Positions 27,915 to 37,399 of a stretch of 64,000 bases of DNA are shown in pieces; position 1 is the stretch's first letter, and each line of letters starts with the position of its first letter. The position numbers and the translations under genes are program-made. The stretch is from Bdellovibrio bacteriovorus (GTDB taxonomy: Bacteria; Bdellovibrionota; Bdellovibrionia; Bdellovibrionales; Bdellovibrionaceae), in assembly GCF_001592755.1 (NCBI RefSeq), contig NZ_LUKF01000019.1, forward strand, positions 124,001 through 188,000, written 5' to 3'. The notes under the pieces are model-generated. The model saw only the letters and a program-made list of their open reading frames with translations. It made no database searches and was not told where the DNA came from.

Positions 27915-30590
<2,676 letters not shown>

Positions 30591-30706
30591 AGTCTTAGAG
30601 AATAGACCCAAATCCATTAAGGCGGCAAGGTAACGTGCCATAACTAGTCTGCGTCATTCATTCGGAAAAGATACATTTCCTCGACGAAAGGTTGGCTTCG
30701 GACGAC

Positions 30707-31331: not shown

Positions 31332-31817
31332 CTATGTCGAGTAATTAACCTGACGAACCCCTTCGTAAGCGGCAATAGCAACGCTCGTAGCGAGGTTTAG
31401 GCTGCGCGCTCCTTGGCCTATCATTGGGATTGTTACTGTTTGGTTTGGGTATTTTAGTAAGAGGTCGGGATCTAGGCCCTTGGTTTCTTTTCCGAAGACG
31501 AACCAGTCGCCTGGTTGGAATTTGGGTTCGAAATACGTGCGTTTTGTTTTTGTTGTGAAGAGCCAGATGCGGGATGTGTCTTCGACTTTGCTCCACCAAT
31601 CTTCGAATGTGGCGTGGCGGTGCCAGGAAAGATGGGGCCAGTAATCAAGGCCGGCGCGTTTTAAGTTGGTGTCGTTGATTTCAAAACCCATTTTGCCGAC
31701 CAAGTGCAGTTCGCAGTTGGTGGCAACACAGGTGCGCCCGATGTTTCCGGTGTTTTGCGGAATTTCGGGCTCGATCAGAACAATGCGGAAAAGTTTTTGC
31801 GAATCAGAACTAGGCAA
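31332..31817 (-). CDS. trmL: tRNA (cytidine(34)-2'-O)-methyltransferase
   Basis: This 161-residue SPOUT methyltransferase modifies the wobble base of certain leucine tRNAs. Diagnostic motifs are IEPEIPQNTGNIGRTC at the N-terminus, FGKETKGL, and the knot region IPMIGQGARSLNLATSVAIA. I prefer TTG 31817, which overlaps the upstream stop by 8 bases and follows GAGG. Another in-frame TTG at 31841 would add eight residues before the family's usual start. Confidence 0.9.
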   Translation of the reverse strand: MPSSDSQKLFRIVLIEPEIPQNTGNIGRTCVATNCELHLVGKMGFEINDTNLKRAGLDYWPHLSWHRHATFEDWWSKVEDTSRIWLFTTKTKRTYFEPKFQPGDWFVFGKETKGLDPDLLLKYPNQTVTIPMIGQGARSLNLATSVAIAAYEGVRQVNYST

Positions 31818-32412
31818 GATGCTTATAAACCTCTTGGCCAAGTTTGGATAAAGCTAAACGACGACCTTTATCGACGATCAGCTCTAAGTTCATGAGTTCG
31901 CGATACAAAGTCAGGTCAATAGGAACAATCTCTCGGCCAGTCGATTTTCCTAGCTTTTGAATGTACGTGACTTGCTTTTCTGAAAGCTTCGACGTCAAAG
32001 ATGGATGTTCTTCCAGAGAACGTTTCCAATCTCCGCCAGGAATCACAGCGGCATTCACCGGAAGTTTTAATGGATTTAGGAAGTAAATCCAAGCGCGGAC
32101 TGGAGCCGATGAGCCTTCTGGATACACATCCACTTCTTCTCTAGAATAAAGACTCTGATCTGGATCGTGGCGGTTGTAGCCGTGGAACTCATCCATGAGG
32201 CTCAAAAGCAACTCTGAGCTTTTCAGTTCCACAAGCTGACCTGGAACCAGGTCACTGCCGGCTTTAACGATAGCCGGAAAGCCTACTTTTAAACGGTAGG
32301 CCGTCGCTTTAACGCGCGCAAGTACTGAAGATTCCAAGAAATTTTGGATCTTGTTGAAGTGAACCATGCCTTCACAAAAAGATCCGTAGACGAAAAAACG
32401 TGTTGTAGTCAT
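31810..32412 (-). CDS. AIG2/gamma-glutamylcyclotransferase-like protein
   Basis: This 200-residue protein begins TTTRFFVYGSF, the VYGSL-type substrate loop of the GGCT/AIG2 fold, and continues with a typical beta-barrel core (FPAIVKAGSDLVPGQLVELKS). Members act as gamma-glutamylcyclotransferases or related amide-cleaving enzymes. A C-terminal helical part (about 130-200) is extra. The start is ATG 32412 behind GGGGGG. It is coupled to trmL. The exact substrate is unknown. Confidence 0.75.
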   Translation of the reverse strand: MTTTRFFVYGSFCEGMVHFNKIQNFLESSVLARVKATAYRLKVGFPAIVKAGSDLVPGQLVELKSSELLLSLMDEFHGYNRHDPDQSLYSREEVDVYPEGSSAPVRAWIYFLNPLKLPVNAAVIPGGDWKRSLEEHPSLTSKLSEKQVTYIQKLGKSTGREIVPIDLTLYRELMNLELIVDKGRRLALSKLGQEVYKHLA

Positions 32413-32571
32413 TATCCCCCCCGAGTACGACAACAATAGTGGCTTTTCCTAAAAGAGGTCCCGTGTGTACCAAAAACCACAGGGCACCGCAAGCCGCTTT
32501 CTGAGCAGTTGCTCTTTTTTTCCAAGAAGTGACAGTTTCTGTTTTGCGTTATTAGCAATTAAAAAAATTAA

Positions 32572-32985
<414 letters not shown>

Positions 32986-33018: not shown

Positions 33019-34443
33019 ATGACCCAGATGACTGGTAAAGACGTACTGAAGTTCGCCAATGAAAAAGGCGCGAAGATGGTAGATCTCAAGTTCTGTGACA
33101 TGATCGGAACTTGGCAACATTTAACTGTTCCCCTTCATCAATTGACTGATGAGACTTTCGAAAACGGCTTTGGCTTTGACGGAAGCTCCATTCGCGGATG
33201 GAGAGGCATCGAAGAATCTGACATGATCATCTTGCCGGATCCAAACACGGCGATGATGGATCCTTTCATGCAGGTTCCGACACTTTCAATCATCTGTGAC
33301 GTTTGTTTGCCAGAAACTCTTCAGCCTTATAACCGCGATCCACGTCAGCTAGTTAAAAAAGCCATTGCTTATATGCAATCAACTGGAATTGCTGACACTG
33401 CTTATTTCGGTCCAGAAGCTGAGTTCTTCATCTTTGATGATGTTCGTTACGAACAAACTAGCAACTCTGCTTTTTACATGATTGATAGCGAAGAGGCTGC
33501 TTGGAATACGGGCCGCGATGAAGGTGGCCGTAACTTGGGTTACAAAGTACGTAGTAAAGAAGGTTACTTCCCTGCTCTTCCGACAGACACGCAACAAGAT
33601 CTGCGCACAGAAATCTGCTTGGAACTAGAAAGATGCGGAATGCAAGTGGAGCGTCATCACCACGAAGTCGCTTCTGCGGGTCAAGGCGAAATCAATTTCC
33701 GATTCGATACCGCTTTGAACATGGGCGACAAAATGATGTGGTTCAAATACATCGTTAAGAACGTGGCAAAACGCTACGGTAAAACAGCGACGTTCATGCC
33801 AAAACCTGTTTTCGGCGATAACGGATCTGGAATGCACATTCATATGTCATTATGGAAAGATGGAAAAAATCTTTTCGCGGGTAACAAGTATGCGGGTCTT
33901 TCTGAAATGGCGCTTTATTATATCGGCGGCGTTTTGAAACATGCTCCTGCTCTTTGCGGTATCATCAATCCAACGACAAACTCTTACAAACGTTTGGTTC
34001 CTGGATTTGAAGCGCCAACAAAATTGGCTTACAGCTTTAAGAACCGTTCTGCAGCAATGCGTATCCCGAACTCGGGACCAAATCCTAAAGCACGTCGTAT
34101 CGAGTTCCGTACTCCAGATCCAACAGCAAATATCTATCTTGCTGAGGCAGCGATCTTGATGGCGGGTCTTGATGGTATCATCAACAAGATTCATCCAGGT
34201 GATCCGCTTGATAAAGATATCTACGGTCTTCCTCCCCAAGAGGCGGCGGCTATCCCGTCAGTTCCAGGAACTTTGGAAGAAAGCTTGAATAATCTTCGCG
34301 ATAACTGCAGCTTCTTGAAAAAGGGTGATGTCTTCAGTGAAGATCTGATCGAAACTTGGATCCAGTACAAAATCGACAAAGAGGTGCGTCCGGTACAGCA
34401 AAGACCTGTTCCGTACGAATTCCACTTGTACTACGACTGTTAA
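33019..34443 (+). CDS. glnA: Glutamine synthetase type I
   Basis: This 474-residue dodecameric enzyme makes glutamine from glutamate, ammonia and ATP. Motifs include [58 protein letters not shown] and [14 protein letters not shown]. The loop [12 protein letters not shown] carries the Tyr that is adenylylated in GSI-beta enzymes, so activity control by adenylylation is likely. The ribosome site is CGGAGG. Confidence 0.97.
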
Positions 34444-34460: not shown

Positions 34461-34488
34461 AGTGGGGGCAAGCTTGCTTGCTCCCACT
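34461..34488 (+). other. Stem-loop between glnA and the GcvH-like gene
   Basis: The 13-base arms AGTGGGGGCAAGC and GCTTGCTCCCACT pair with a single G-T position around a 2-nt loop. There is no following T run, so it is more likely an mRNA-stability or partial-termination signal than a strong terminator. Confidence 0.5.
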
Positions 34489-34546: not shown

Positions 34547-34948
34547 ATGGCATCAGACGACGTAAGAAATTTTATGGGTTATCTTTGGATCCGTCAGGAA
34601 GATGGTGTGATCACTATCGGCATCAACGAAGACGGTTTAGAAGATTTTGAAGAAATCTCTTCGGTAGAACTTCCGGCTGAACAAGAAAAAATCGACGCTG
34701 ACGTTGTCATTGGTACTTTAGAGACAGACGATGGTCCATTGGATATTTATTCTCCTGTTTCTGGAACCGTGATCGAAGTGAACACTCAAGTCGTTGAAGA
34801 TCCCTCTATCATTGTTGAAGATCCCTATGAAGAGGGTTGGTTGATCCGCATCGAGGCTGATGAAGACTACGATGACGAGGATGAAGACGAAGATGATGAT
34901 GACGACGACGATGAGGATGATGAAGATTACGAGGACGATGAAGACTAA
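34547..34948 (+). CDS. GcvH-like domain without lipoyl lysine, acidic tail
   Basis: This 133-residue protein matches the fold pattern of the glycine-cleavage H protein: SPVSGTVIEVN, PSIIVEDPYEEGWLIRI. In the E-S-V-K position the sequence is ETDDG (E59-D62), so the lysine that carries lipoate is Asp62. Residues 104-133 are nearly all Asp/Glu. It therefore cannot act as a normal lipoyl carrier. It follows glnA by 103 bases and ends at a strong terminator. A binding or regulatory role is possible; function unknown. Confidence 0.75.
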   Translation: MASDDVRNFMGYLWIRQEDGVITIGINEDGLEDFEEISSVELPAEQEKIDADVVIGTLETDDGPLDIYSPVSGTVIEVNTQVVEDPSIIVEDPYEEGWLIRIEADEDYDDEDEDEDDDDDDDEDDEDYEDDED

Positions 34949-34965
34949 AAACCTTCGTTAAAAAG

Positions 34966-34992
34966 AAAAAGCCCCATTCCTGGGGCTTTTTT
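34966..34992 (+). terminator. Rho-independent terminator of the glnB-glnA region
   Basis: Stem GCCCCA/TGGGGC with loop TTCC, A-rich before and six T after. It follows the GcvH-like gene and probably ends the glnB-glnA transcript. Confidence 0.9.
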
Positions 34993-35334: not shown

Positions 35335-36225
35335 ATGAAGACCGCACGATTCGATAACTTAATTCTGTATACCATCTGCACGTTGATCTGGGGCTCTACG
35401 TACCTAGTGATCACATTCCAAGTCGATGCGGCCTCTCCGATAACTTCGGTCTTCTGGCGATTCTTATTAGCCGCGGCTCTGCTCTTTGGTTTTTGCTTCT
35501 TTAAAAAACAGAATCTTAAGTATCAGCGTCGAGAACATGTTCTTTTCGCCCTTCAGGGAATTTTCATGTTTTCCGTGAACTACATGCTGACCTATATCGC
35601 GGAAACAATGATCAGCTCTGGGATGGTGGCGCTGACCTTCACGCTTTTGATTTATTATAACATGTTCGGCATGAGGGTTTTCTTCAAAAAACCCATTAAT
35701 CGCAGTGTGATTGTGGGCTCACTCTTAGGTGGCCTAGGAATTGTTTTTATTTTTCTTAACGAGATTCTGCATTTTGATACGAATTCAAAAACCATTCTTG
35801 GTCTTGTGATCGGATTTTTTGCGACCATGTCCGCTTCGATTGGAAACATGGTCGCGCAAAAAAGTTATCAATTGCGTATTCCCGTCTTAATCACAAACAC
35901 CTGGGGAATGCTTTACGGAAGCATTTTCACGTTACTCGTAGCACTTATTCATGGCGATAGCTTAGCTATACCACTGAACGCACGTTTCTTAAGTGCGCTT
36001 CTTTACTTGGCGCTATTCGGCTCAGTCATCGCTTTTGGGGCTTATTTATCTTTGGCAGGAAAAATCGGTGCTGAAAAAGCGGCCTACACCAGCGTTATTT
36101 CTCCGGTGATCGCGATCACTCTTTCCAGTTTTTTTGAAAACTTTGTGTGGACGCCGTATATTATTACCGGCGTCGTTCTTTGTCTTTTAGGAAATATTCT
36201 TACTCTGACCAAGCGGGCGGGTTGA
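35335..36225 (+). CDS. EamA/DMT-family permease
   Basis: This 296-residue protein has about ten membrane helices arranged as two repeated EamA halves. Characteristic segments are TLIWGSTYLVI at the start, FSVNYMLTYIAETMISSGMVAL in the first half, and GAYLSLAGKIGAEKAAYTSVISPVIAI in the second. Family members export amino acids, nucleosides or other metabolites. The substrate cannot be inferred. Its end overlaps the convergent gene by 26 bases. Confidence 0.88.
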   Translation: MKTARFDNLILYTICTLIWGSTYLVITFQVDAASPITSVFWRFLLAAALLFGFCFFKKQNLKYQRREHVLFALQGIFMFSVNYMLTYIAETMISSGMVALTFTLLIYYNMFGMRVFFKKPINRSVIVGSLLGGLGIVFIFLNEILHFDTNSKTILGLVIGFFATMSASIGNMVAQKSYQLRIPVLITNTWGMLYGSIFTLLVALIHGDSLAIPLNARFLSALLYLALFGSVIAFGAYLSLAGKIGAEKAAYTSVISPVIAITLSSFFENFVWTPYIITGVVLCLLGNILTLTKRAG

Positions 36226-37399
36226 TTCCCGGCGGTAAAAAGAAAACGCCTGACTGATACATCATAGACAGCACACGAGCACTGGATTTGCGAAGATCCT
36301 TTCCCTGAGGTGAACCATTATCAACGACAATCATTCCGTCTTCACCTGCGGATATGTATGTGTGGCCTGGTGATTTTCCAACTTGGTGCATGATAAAGCT
36401 ACCAGTGATGGGACGATAAACAGAAGCATCCCAAGGAATCCAGCCAGCTCGATAAAGTGCTGCGGAGAAGTGCACCACCGCCGCCGTGTGATGCCAGATC
36501 AAAGGATTCTTTTTGTTTTCATTAAAGTCATCAGTGACCCGATAACCTGCGCGTTGATAAGCCTGTCTTAAAACTTCGGATTGAAACTCGGCACACGGAA
36601 CACTTTCAAAACCATGACGAACAGCCGTGGCTCGAGTGGCGATGGTCCAAGCCCCCCGCGTAGAGATGGCACCCGTTTTTTCAAACTGGGCTGAAAGACG
36701 CTGAGCCAGTTTAGAATCAATCATCATATAGGACTTTTCTGAAGGCTCTGTACGTGTCGCCGCTCTTTTTAGTTCAGAGTAAATGCTGCGCCACTTTTCT
36801 CTTTCTTCGGAAGATAACGATTTGCCATCCACCATGTGATTCAGTCGTGAGCCAAATCTTTTACGAATGGATTTTGAATAGCGAAATTTCGGCCTCCCGT
36901 CGGCATGAAAGTACTCAAGAAATGCTTCATTAGGTTCTGACGTGGTATGAATGGCGAAGTGGCCTTCGGTCCCTTCAATATCTTCAATAATAGAAGCAAA
37001 GATAGATAAACCACCGGCCGTGGTATTGAAGTCATTGATCTTTTCTACGGTGAACTCATCTTGATAATCTGCGGGCACAGAAAGAATGCGAATGGGATGG
37101 ATGAAACCCGTGCTAGATCTTTCTAGGTTTCCTTTAGAATTTCGAAAAGGCAGATACTTCTTTGTGTACTCTAGCGGAATTTCAATTTGCGCGCCGGCAG
37201 GGAGTTCCGCCTTTGCTTCAAGAATGCCATTCACCTCATAACGAATCATTTTTCCTTCGCTAAGAATAATTTTTTTCGTCGGAATGCTCTGGCTCGATTC
37301 CGGAATGGGAAGCAGTATCTGTGGCTTAACTTCAACTGCATGGACGGCATTTGAGTTGAAAAGAAAAAATGCGGTCACAAGAATGGATTGTGCTGGCAT
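36200..37399 (-). CDS. Secreted protein with possible papain-like domain
   Basis: This 399-residue protein has a signal peptide ending near AVHA-V (residue 21), behind CGGAGGA. The C-terminal part has SVPCAEFQSEVLRQAYQRAGY and, further on, SPGHTYISAGEDGMIVVDNG. This Cys-helix then His-strand order resembles NlpC/P60 or amidase-type cysteine peptidases that act on peptidoglycan. The N-terminal two thirds are unassigned. The assignment is tentative because no full family motif is visible. Confidence 0.5.
   Translation of the reverse strand: MPAQSILVTAFFLFNSNAVHAVEVKPQILLPIPESSQSIPTKKIILSEGKMIRYEVNGILEAKAELPAGAQIEIPLEYTKKYLPFRNSKGNLERSSTGFIHPIRILSVPADYQDEFTVEKINDFNTTAGGLSIFASIIEDIEGTEGHFAIHTTSEPNEAFLEYFHADGRPKFRYSKSIRKRFGSRLNHMVDGKSLSSEEREKWRSIYSELKRAATRTEPSEKSYMMIDSKLAQRLSAQFEKTGAISTRGAWTIATRATAVRHGFESVPCAEFQSEVLRQAYQRAGYRVTDDFNENKKNPLIWHHTAAVVHFSAALYRAGWIPWDASVYRPITGSFIMHQVGKSPGHTYISAGEDGMIVVDNGSPQGKDLRKSSARVLSMMYQSGVFFLPPGINPPAWSE

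Follow-up and report, generated by a model that had tools for sequence, protein, structure and literature searches.

The gene directly downstream of glnA in the window, by which we mean the whole 64,000-nucleotide stretch of Bdellovibrio bacteriovorus DNA analysed here, encodes an H-like protein that has the known glycine-cleavage H-protein (GcvH) fold but not the lipoyl lysine. It is a clear bacterial example of a swinging-arm carrier domain that has outlived its arm. The gene is retained class-wide, under purifying selection, and independently of type I glutamine synthetase (GSI, the product of glnA) and of P-II (the product of glnB). On balance we lean towards regarding its product as a non-carrier 'pseudo-H' binding module whose partner is neither GlnA nor GlnB and which would act through protein-protein binding.

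The open reading frame begins with ATG, and because its orthologues are kept throughout the class with dN/dS of ~0.05-0.1, it is evidently a genuine gene and no chance ORF. Its product scores 83.5 bits against Pfam GCV_H (PF01597; E 1.4e-23, cut-off 22.2, residues 14-109). An AlphaFold2 model built from 40 sequences has pLDDT >90 over the domain, and its top PDB matches are H-proteins (3klr, 1htp, 3ab9 and others, TM ~0.73; E 2.1e-9 for 3klr). Both lines of evidence give the barrel-sandwich H-protein fold. Aligned with canonical GcvH, the site reads E59-T60-D61-D62, with Asp62 in the position of the lipoyl lysine. A true gcvH is present elsewhere in the genome (G000 C14:155369-155725), beside gcvT and with ESVK at its site; it is the only other GCV_H gene there, and its product is ~44% identical to the H-like protein across 92 residues. 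The same genome also has gcvP and GlnE. The acidic tail is predicted to be disordered, and the protein carries a net charge of ~ -50. The initial annotation of the window had already named the H-protein fold, the ETDD site with Asp62 replacing lysine, the nearly unbroken Asp/Glu run of residues 104-133, and the placement after glnB-glnA with a common terminator; each of these observations is confirmed (Table 1).

Table 1. Features of the window at and around the H-like gene (positions are those of the window)
Feature	Position	Strand	Basis	Remark
secA	27915-30641	-		ancestral-locus marker, conserved order
trmL	31332-31841	-	PF00588	ancestral-locus marker with GGACT gene and secA
GGACT-type gamma-glutamylcyclotransferase-like gene	31810-32436	-	PF06094	divergent
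glnB, P-II	32647-32985	+	PF00543	
glnA, type I glutamine synthetase	33019-34443	+	PF00120, PF03951	
Perfect inverted repeat	34461-34488	+		in glnA to H-like gap; no T run; not conserved across genus
H-like, lysine-less GcvH-fold protein	34547-34948	+	ORF, PF01597, AlphaFold2 model	133 aa
Former lipoyl hairpin	34721-34750	+	alignment with canonical GcvH	residues 59-68 (ETDDGPLDIY)
Acidic tail	34856-34945	+	composition, pLDDT ~50	residues 104-133, 27/30 Asp/Glu
Intrinsic terminator after H-like gene	34965-34992	+	prediction	first one past glnB-glnA

In the E. coli H-protein, E12, H13 and E14 hold the aminomethyl-lipoate arm (PMC7733448). We compared such positions along a pea H-protein sequence that served solely to number them; all counts were made on retrieved sequences. 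At the alignment columns H13, E14, S61, K63, G36 and Y120, canonical GcvH is invariant (20/20 each), and the H-like proteins hold the canonical residue in 7, 7, 4, 0, 3 and 0 of 49 cases, respectively. The window protein itself lacks the arm-cavity pair His13/Glu14. On this alignment, the lipoyl lysine, the arm-cavity His-Glu pair and the C-terminal Tyr are lost jointly. Lysine occurs at the site in 20/20 canonical proteins and in 0/65 orthologues, which carry Asp (41), Gln (14), Glu (5), Asn (3) or Ser (2) at position 62 and so lack the ESVK-type lipoyl-lysine hairpin of GcvH. The former hairpin is of average conservation (weighted entropy 1.74 vs a mean of 1.72); the same stretch is mostly invariant in GcvH. 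Gly63 is kept, for a tight turn, and conservation is highest at W14, E28, Y68, E77, N79, D92, E96 and W98.

These data bear on whether the protein could still be a carrier that uses a different residue or cofactor at the tip of the hairpin, which we regard as highly improbable. Most orthologues have D, Q or E at position 62, next to the conserved Gly63, and homologues in another class (family f22) have lysine there; but the spread over D, Q, E, N and S is the pattern of a turn and of no catalytic site, and the cavity residues are gone. Nor does the protein belong to the curated H families. It scores 72.8 against TIGR00527 (cut-off 115.85) and 78.5 against NF002270 (cut-off 117), the two gcvH models, and it is likewise below the cut-offs of TIGR03077 (not_gcvH; 52.1 <144.05) and NF045810 (GcvH_rel_desulf; 41.6 <150). 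The marks of LbpA, a lipoyl lysine and two conserved Cys, are also missing: there is no lysine at the site, and the window protein contains no Cys at all.

Orthologues are found throughout the order and in a neighbouring order of the same class (f11), the named matches being from Bdellovibrio (including B. bacteriovorus kdesi and Bdellovibrio sp. qaytius), other Bdellovibrionaceae and Pseudobdellovibrio. In a tree of 86 rows the H-like proteins are monophyletic (99/96), apart from GcvH and from HX, a second lysine-variable family of other Bdellovibrionota classes. Most HX families have Q, N, D or S at the site, and Lys predominates among the f22 members; because most of the latter carry this lysine without an ESVK motif, their lipoylation is uncertain. 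Within the H-like clade, dN/dS is 0.076 in the GSI-bearing genus and 0.054, 0.106 and 0.044 in three groups without GSI, figures that are rough because dS is high. Purifying selection thus appears equal with and without GSI, at dN/dS of ~0.05-0.1.

Two side observations concern other members of the superfamily. HX-type proteins of f22 adjoin a HEAT-repeat protein (L125, L127, L133, L141, L142, L145), a linkage seen in f22 only. Third GCV_H copies occur in scattered genomes (L097-L101), two of the five without Lys (leucine in L098, arginine in L101), and the lysine loss in these two is a more recent degeneration from gcvH.

At the locus itself, glnA and the H-like gene are separated by 103 nt without an intrinsic terminator. 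Across the genus Bdellovibrio, 22/23 adjacent loci have no terminator in this gap (21-109 nt), and 22/23 have one after the H-like gene. The three genes are therefore probably co-transcribed in Bdellovibrio, and the dose of the H-like protein may follow nitrogen status. A terminator does lie between glnA and the H-like gene in 9/44 adjacent loci overall, one in the genus and the rest outside it, with clear examples in several other genera. The inverted repeat in the gap was considered as an attenuator and rejected, its sequence not being conserved among relatives, and promoter-like matches (4 found vs 4.1 expected) show no excess over chance. Farther along the window, a 399-aa ORF on the reverse strand (36200-37399) matches no Pfam family.

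The broader locus is marked by secA-trmL-GGACT on the opposite strand, and glnB-glnA lies between these genes and the H-like gene in some cases and not in others. In deep lineages, SpoVR-DUF444-PrkA genes converge towards the H-like gene (e.g. L086 5118-9499); E. coli expresses its relatives of these, YeaG/YeaH, during nitrogen starvation. Conserved neighbours were rejected as a guide to function, since secA, trmL and GGACT point away from the H-like gene and SpoVR, DUF444 and PrkA converge on it, and the conserved-neighbour comparison revealed no constant operon partner besides glnA. Most likely, the glnB-glnA transcription unit is a secondary, lineage-specific placement of the H-like gene.

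Co-occurrence was scored in 103 genomes of at least 90% completeness and at most 5% contamination, 90 of which carry the H-like gene. It is found together with GSI in 58/103 genomes and with type III glutamine synthetase (GSIII) only in 30/103; among these 30, there is no P-II match at all in 24 and a distant P-II-like match only in 6. Two genomes (G074, G075) have it without GSI or GSIII, with a 350-aa GS-like protein only and no P-II match. GSI and P-II occur without it in 5/103 genomes and GSIII without it in 1/103; a further 7/103, six of them reduced, have neither synthetase nor the H-like gene. GSI is missing from 32/90 carriers, 26 of which also lack any P-II match.

Where GSI is absent, the H-like gene still sits at its ancestral place beside secA-trmL-GGACT; where the H-like gene is absent from a GSI genome, glnB-glnA is kept, in four of the five cases still beside secA-trmL (trmL only in the retrieved stretch of G097). 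The nearest outgroup order has the H-like gene and GSIII only, with no type I GlnA, and for that reason the H-like gene probably predates the arrival of glnB-glnA at the locus, the alternative being loss in the outgroup. The gene is thus not retained only with GlnA or GlnB. Co-occurrence, the loci, the outgroup and dN/dS together indicate that the H-like protein needs neither of them, and a function dependent on GlnA or P-II is rejected as a general account.

It is worth setting these results against the initial annotation, which had proposed a repurposed carrier fold, perhaps one that binds or modulates GlnA or P-II. The repurposing holds: none of the orthologues seen in the class has lysine at position 62, the residues of the arm cavity have gone, as has the signature of the C-terminal helix, and selection is strongly purifying. 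The proposed partnership fails as a general function, given the GSI-less carriers, the five glnB-glnA loci without the H-like gene and the GlnA-less outgroup. Synteny with glnA gave a mixed answer, being kept in many genera and absent in about a third of carriers.

Some link to glutamine synthesis may nevertheless be real. If so, the H-like protein would be a modulator or partner of GlnA (of GSIII where GlnA was lost) or of P-II, which we consider unlikely. The order glnB-glnA-H-like persists in many genera of several families, in G028 (L107) GSIII directly follows the H-like gene on the same strand after a 104 bp gap, and most genomes that lack both GSI and GSIII are also without the H-like gene (7/9). 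These points count against our preferred reading, and the terminator arrangement in the genus speaks for the modulator. Because the G028 arrangement is a single case and the pattern in genomes lacking both synthetases is confounded by genome reduction (six of the seven genomes are reduced), we keep the link as a rival. Against it stand the carriers without GSI or P-II, including G074 and G075, the five loci with GSI and P-II but no H-like gene, the unchanged dN/dS where GSI is missing, the terminators that split glnA from the H-like gene mostly outside the genus, and the GSIII-only outgroup. Moreover, the source genome has GlnE, so the usual regulator of GlnA is already at hand. Retention across the class, in species without the type I glutamine synthetase and P-II genes among others, means that the protein is not simply a glutamine synthetase regulator.

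Two local configurations were also seen. In family f5, three genomes from two genera (G071-G073) keep glnB-glnA without the H-like gene and the sister genus (G074-G075) has the H-like gene without glnB-glnA, an either-or pattern. At L042 (G005), the glnA shares just 67% identity with the genus type, and P-II matches are missing from the genome, as if glnA had been replaced and glnB lost while the H-like gene stayed.

A different possibility is that the protein is a decoy that regulates enzymes of lipoylation or glycine cleavage (GcvT, GcvP, LipA, ligase), following the precedent of BADC, a group of lysine-less plant proteins in competition with BCCP for acetyl-CoA carboxylase (PMC7712654). By analogy, a carrier paralogue without the attachment function could work in the same way, the fold is retained, and GcvP is present in 130/141 genomes, including nearly all H-like carriers. 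Glycine-cleavage genes are so common, however, that this co-occurrence does not discriminate. The hairpin read by GcvT and ligases has relaxed to average conservation, which weakens a decoy acting through it; the arm-cavity residues are lost; gcvH and gcvP persist in reduced genomes that have no H-like gene; and G051 (94% complete, hence possibly incomplete here) has the H-like gene without gcvH and gcvP. We therefore judge a decoy improbable. More doubtful again is a bolder reading, in which a dedicated class-wide pseudo-H regulator, possibly BADC-like, ties nitrogen assimilation in these predators to lipoylation or to glycine/one-carbon metabolism, with equivalent lysine-less, acidic-tailed regulators evolved separately in Desulfobacterota.

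Under the preferred reading of a non-carrier binding module, the H-like protein is a GcvH-family descendant that keeps the barrel-sandwich fold. With no lipoyl lysine, and without the elements that secure the arm and display it, it would be neither lipoylated at the usual site nor able to shuttle aminomethyl groups. Binding may proceed through a conserved face that includes F9, W14, E28, Y68, E77, D92, E96 and W98, and the obligatory partner would be something other than GlnA or GlnB. The acidic tail, probably lengthened in Bdellovibrionaceae, could serve as a disordered electrostatic or solubilising appendage. In Bdellovibrio, the amount of protein may track nitrogen status by way of the probable co-transcription with glnB-glnA.

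Our literature search found no publication on this protein and no paper linking Bdellovibrio, P-II and glutamine synthetase; glycine cleavage, glutamine and lipoyl all go unmentioned in the main text of a Bdellovibrio Tn-seq study. Because it exceeds the Pfam GCV_H cut-off, the protein is likely mislabelled as a glycine-cleavage H protein. It is class-wide in predatory bacteria, under strong purifying selection and below the cut-off of every matching curated NCBIfam model. What an H fold does without lipoate is directly testable in Bdellovibrio.

Losses of the carrier arm recur with acidic tails in several lineages. In Desulfobacterota we found GcvH-like proteins that lack the lysine and end in a long acidic tail (Ca. 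Adiutrix, Desulfobacca, Thermodesulfatator; L185, L187, L188, L190, L195, L199, L207, L211-L213, L218, L220). They share lysine loss and the acidic C-terminus with the H-like protein but form a separate clade nearer GcvH, and neither glnA nor glnB was found at their loci. The Thermodesulfatator protein (L213), with Gln at the site, even passes the NCBIfam gcvH cut-off without a lipoyl lysine. H paralogues of this lysine-less, acidic-tailed kind have arisen separately both in Desulfobacterota and in other Bdellovibrionota classes.

Among known systems, GcvH (PF01597, TIGR00527) shares with the H-like protein its fold, core length and framework W, G, P and N residues, but the H-like protein has no lipoyl Lys, ESVK motif, arm-cavity HE pair or C-terminal Tyr helix, and it has instead an acidic tail, a clade of its own and a place outside the gcv operon. 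The chlamydial 'not_gcvH' family (TIGR03077) and NF045810 are similarly GcvH-derived and, by name, not glycine-cleavage carriers, although by score the H-like protein is a member of neither. LbpA of sulfur oxidation (PMC6067878) is another GcvH paralogue repurposed outside glycine cleavage; it is lipoylated, where the H-like protein has no lipoyl Lys, and no hdr or lplA genes were seen among the identified neighbours. BADC, finally, belongs to the biotinyl family rather than to GcvH, and its partner and mechanism are known; it is likewise a non-catalytic paralogue of a carrier-domain protein, and a similar mode of action is possible.
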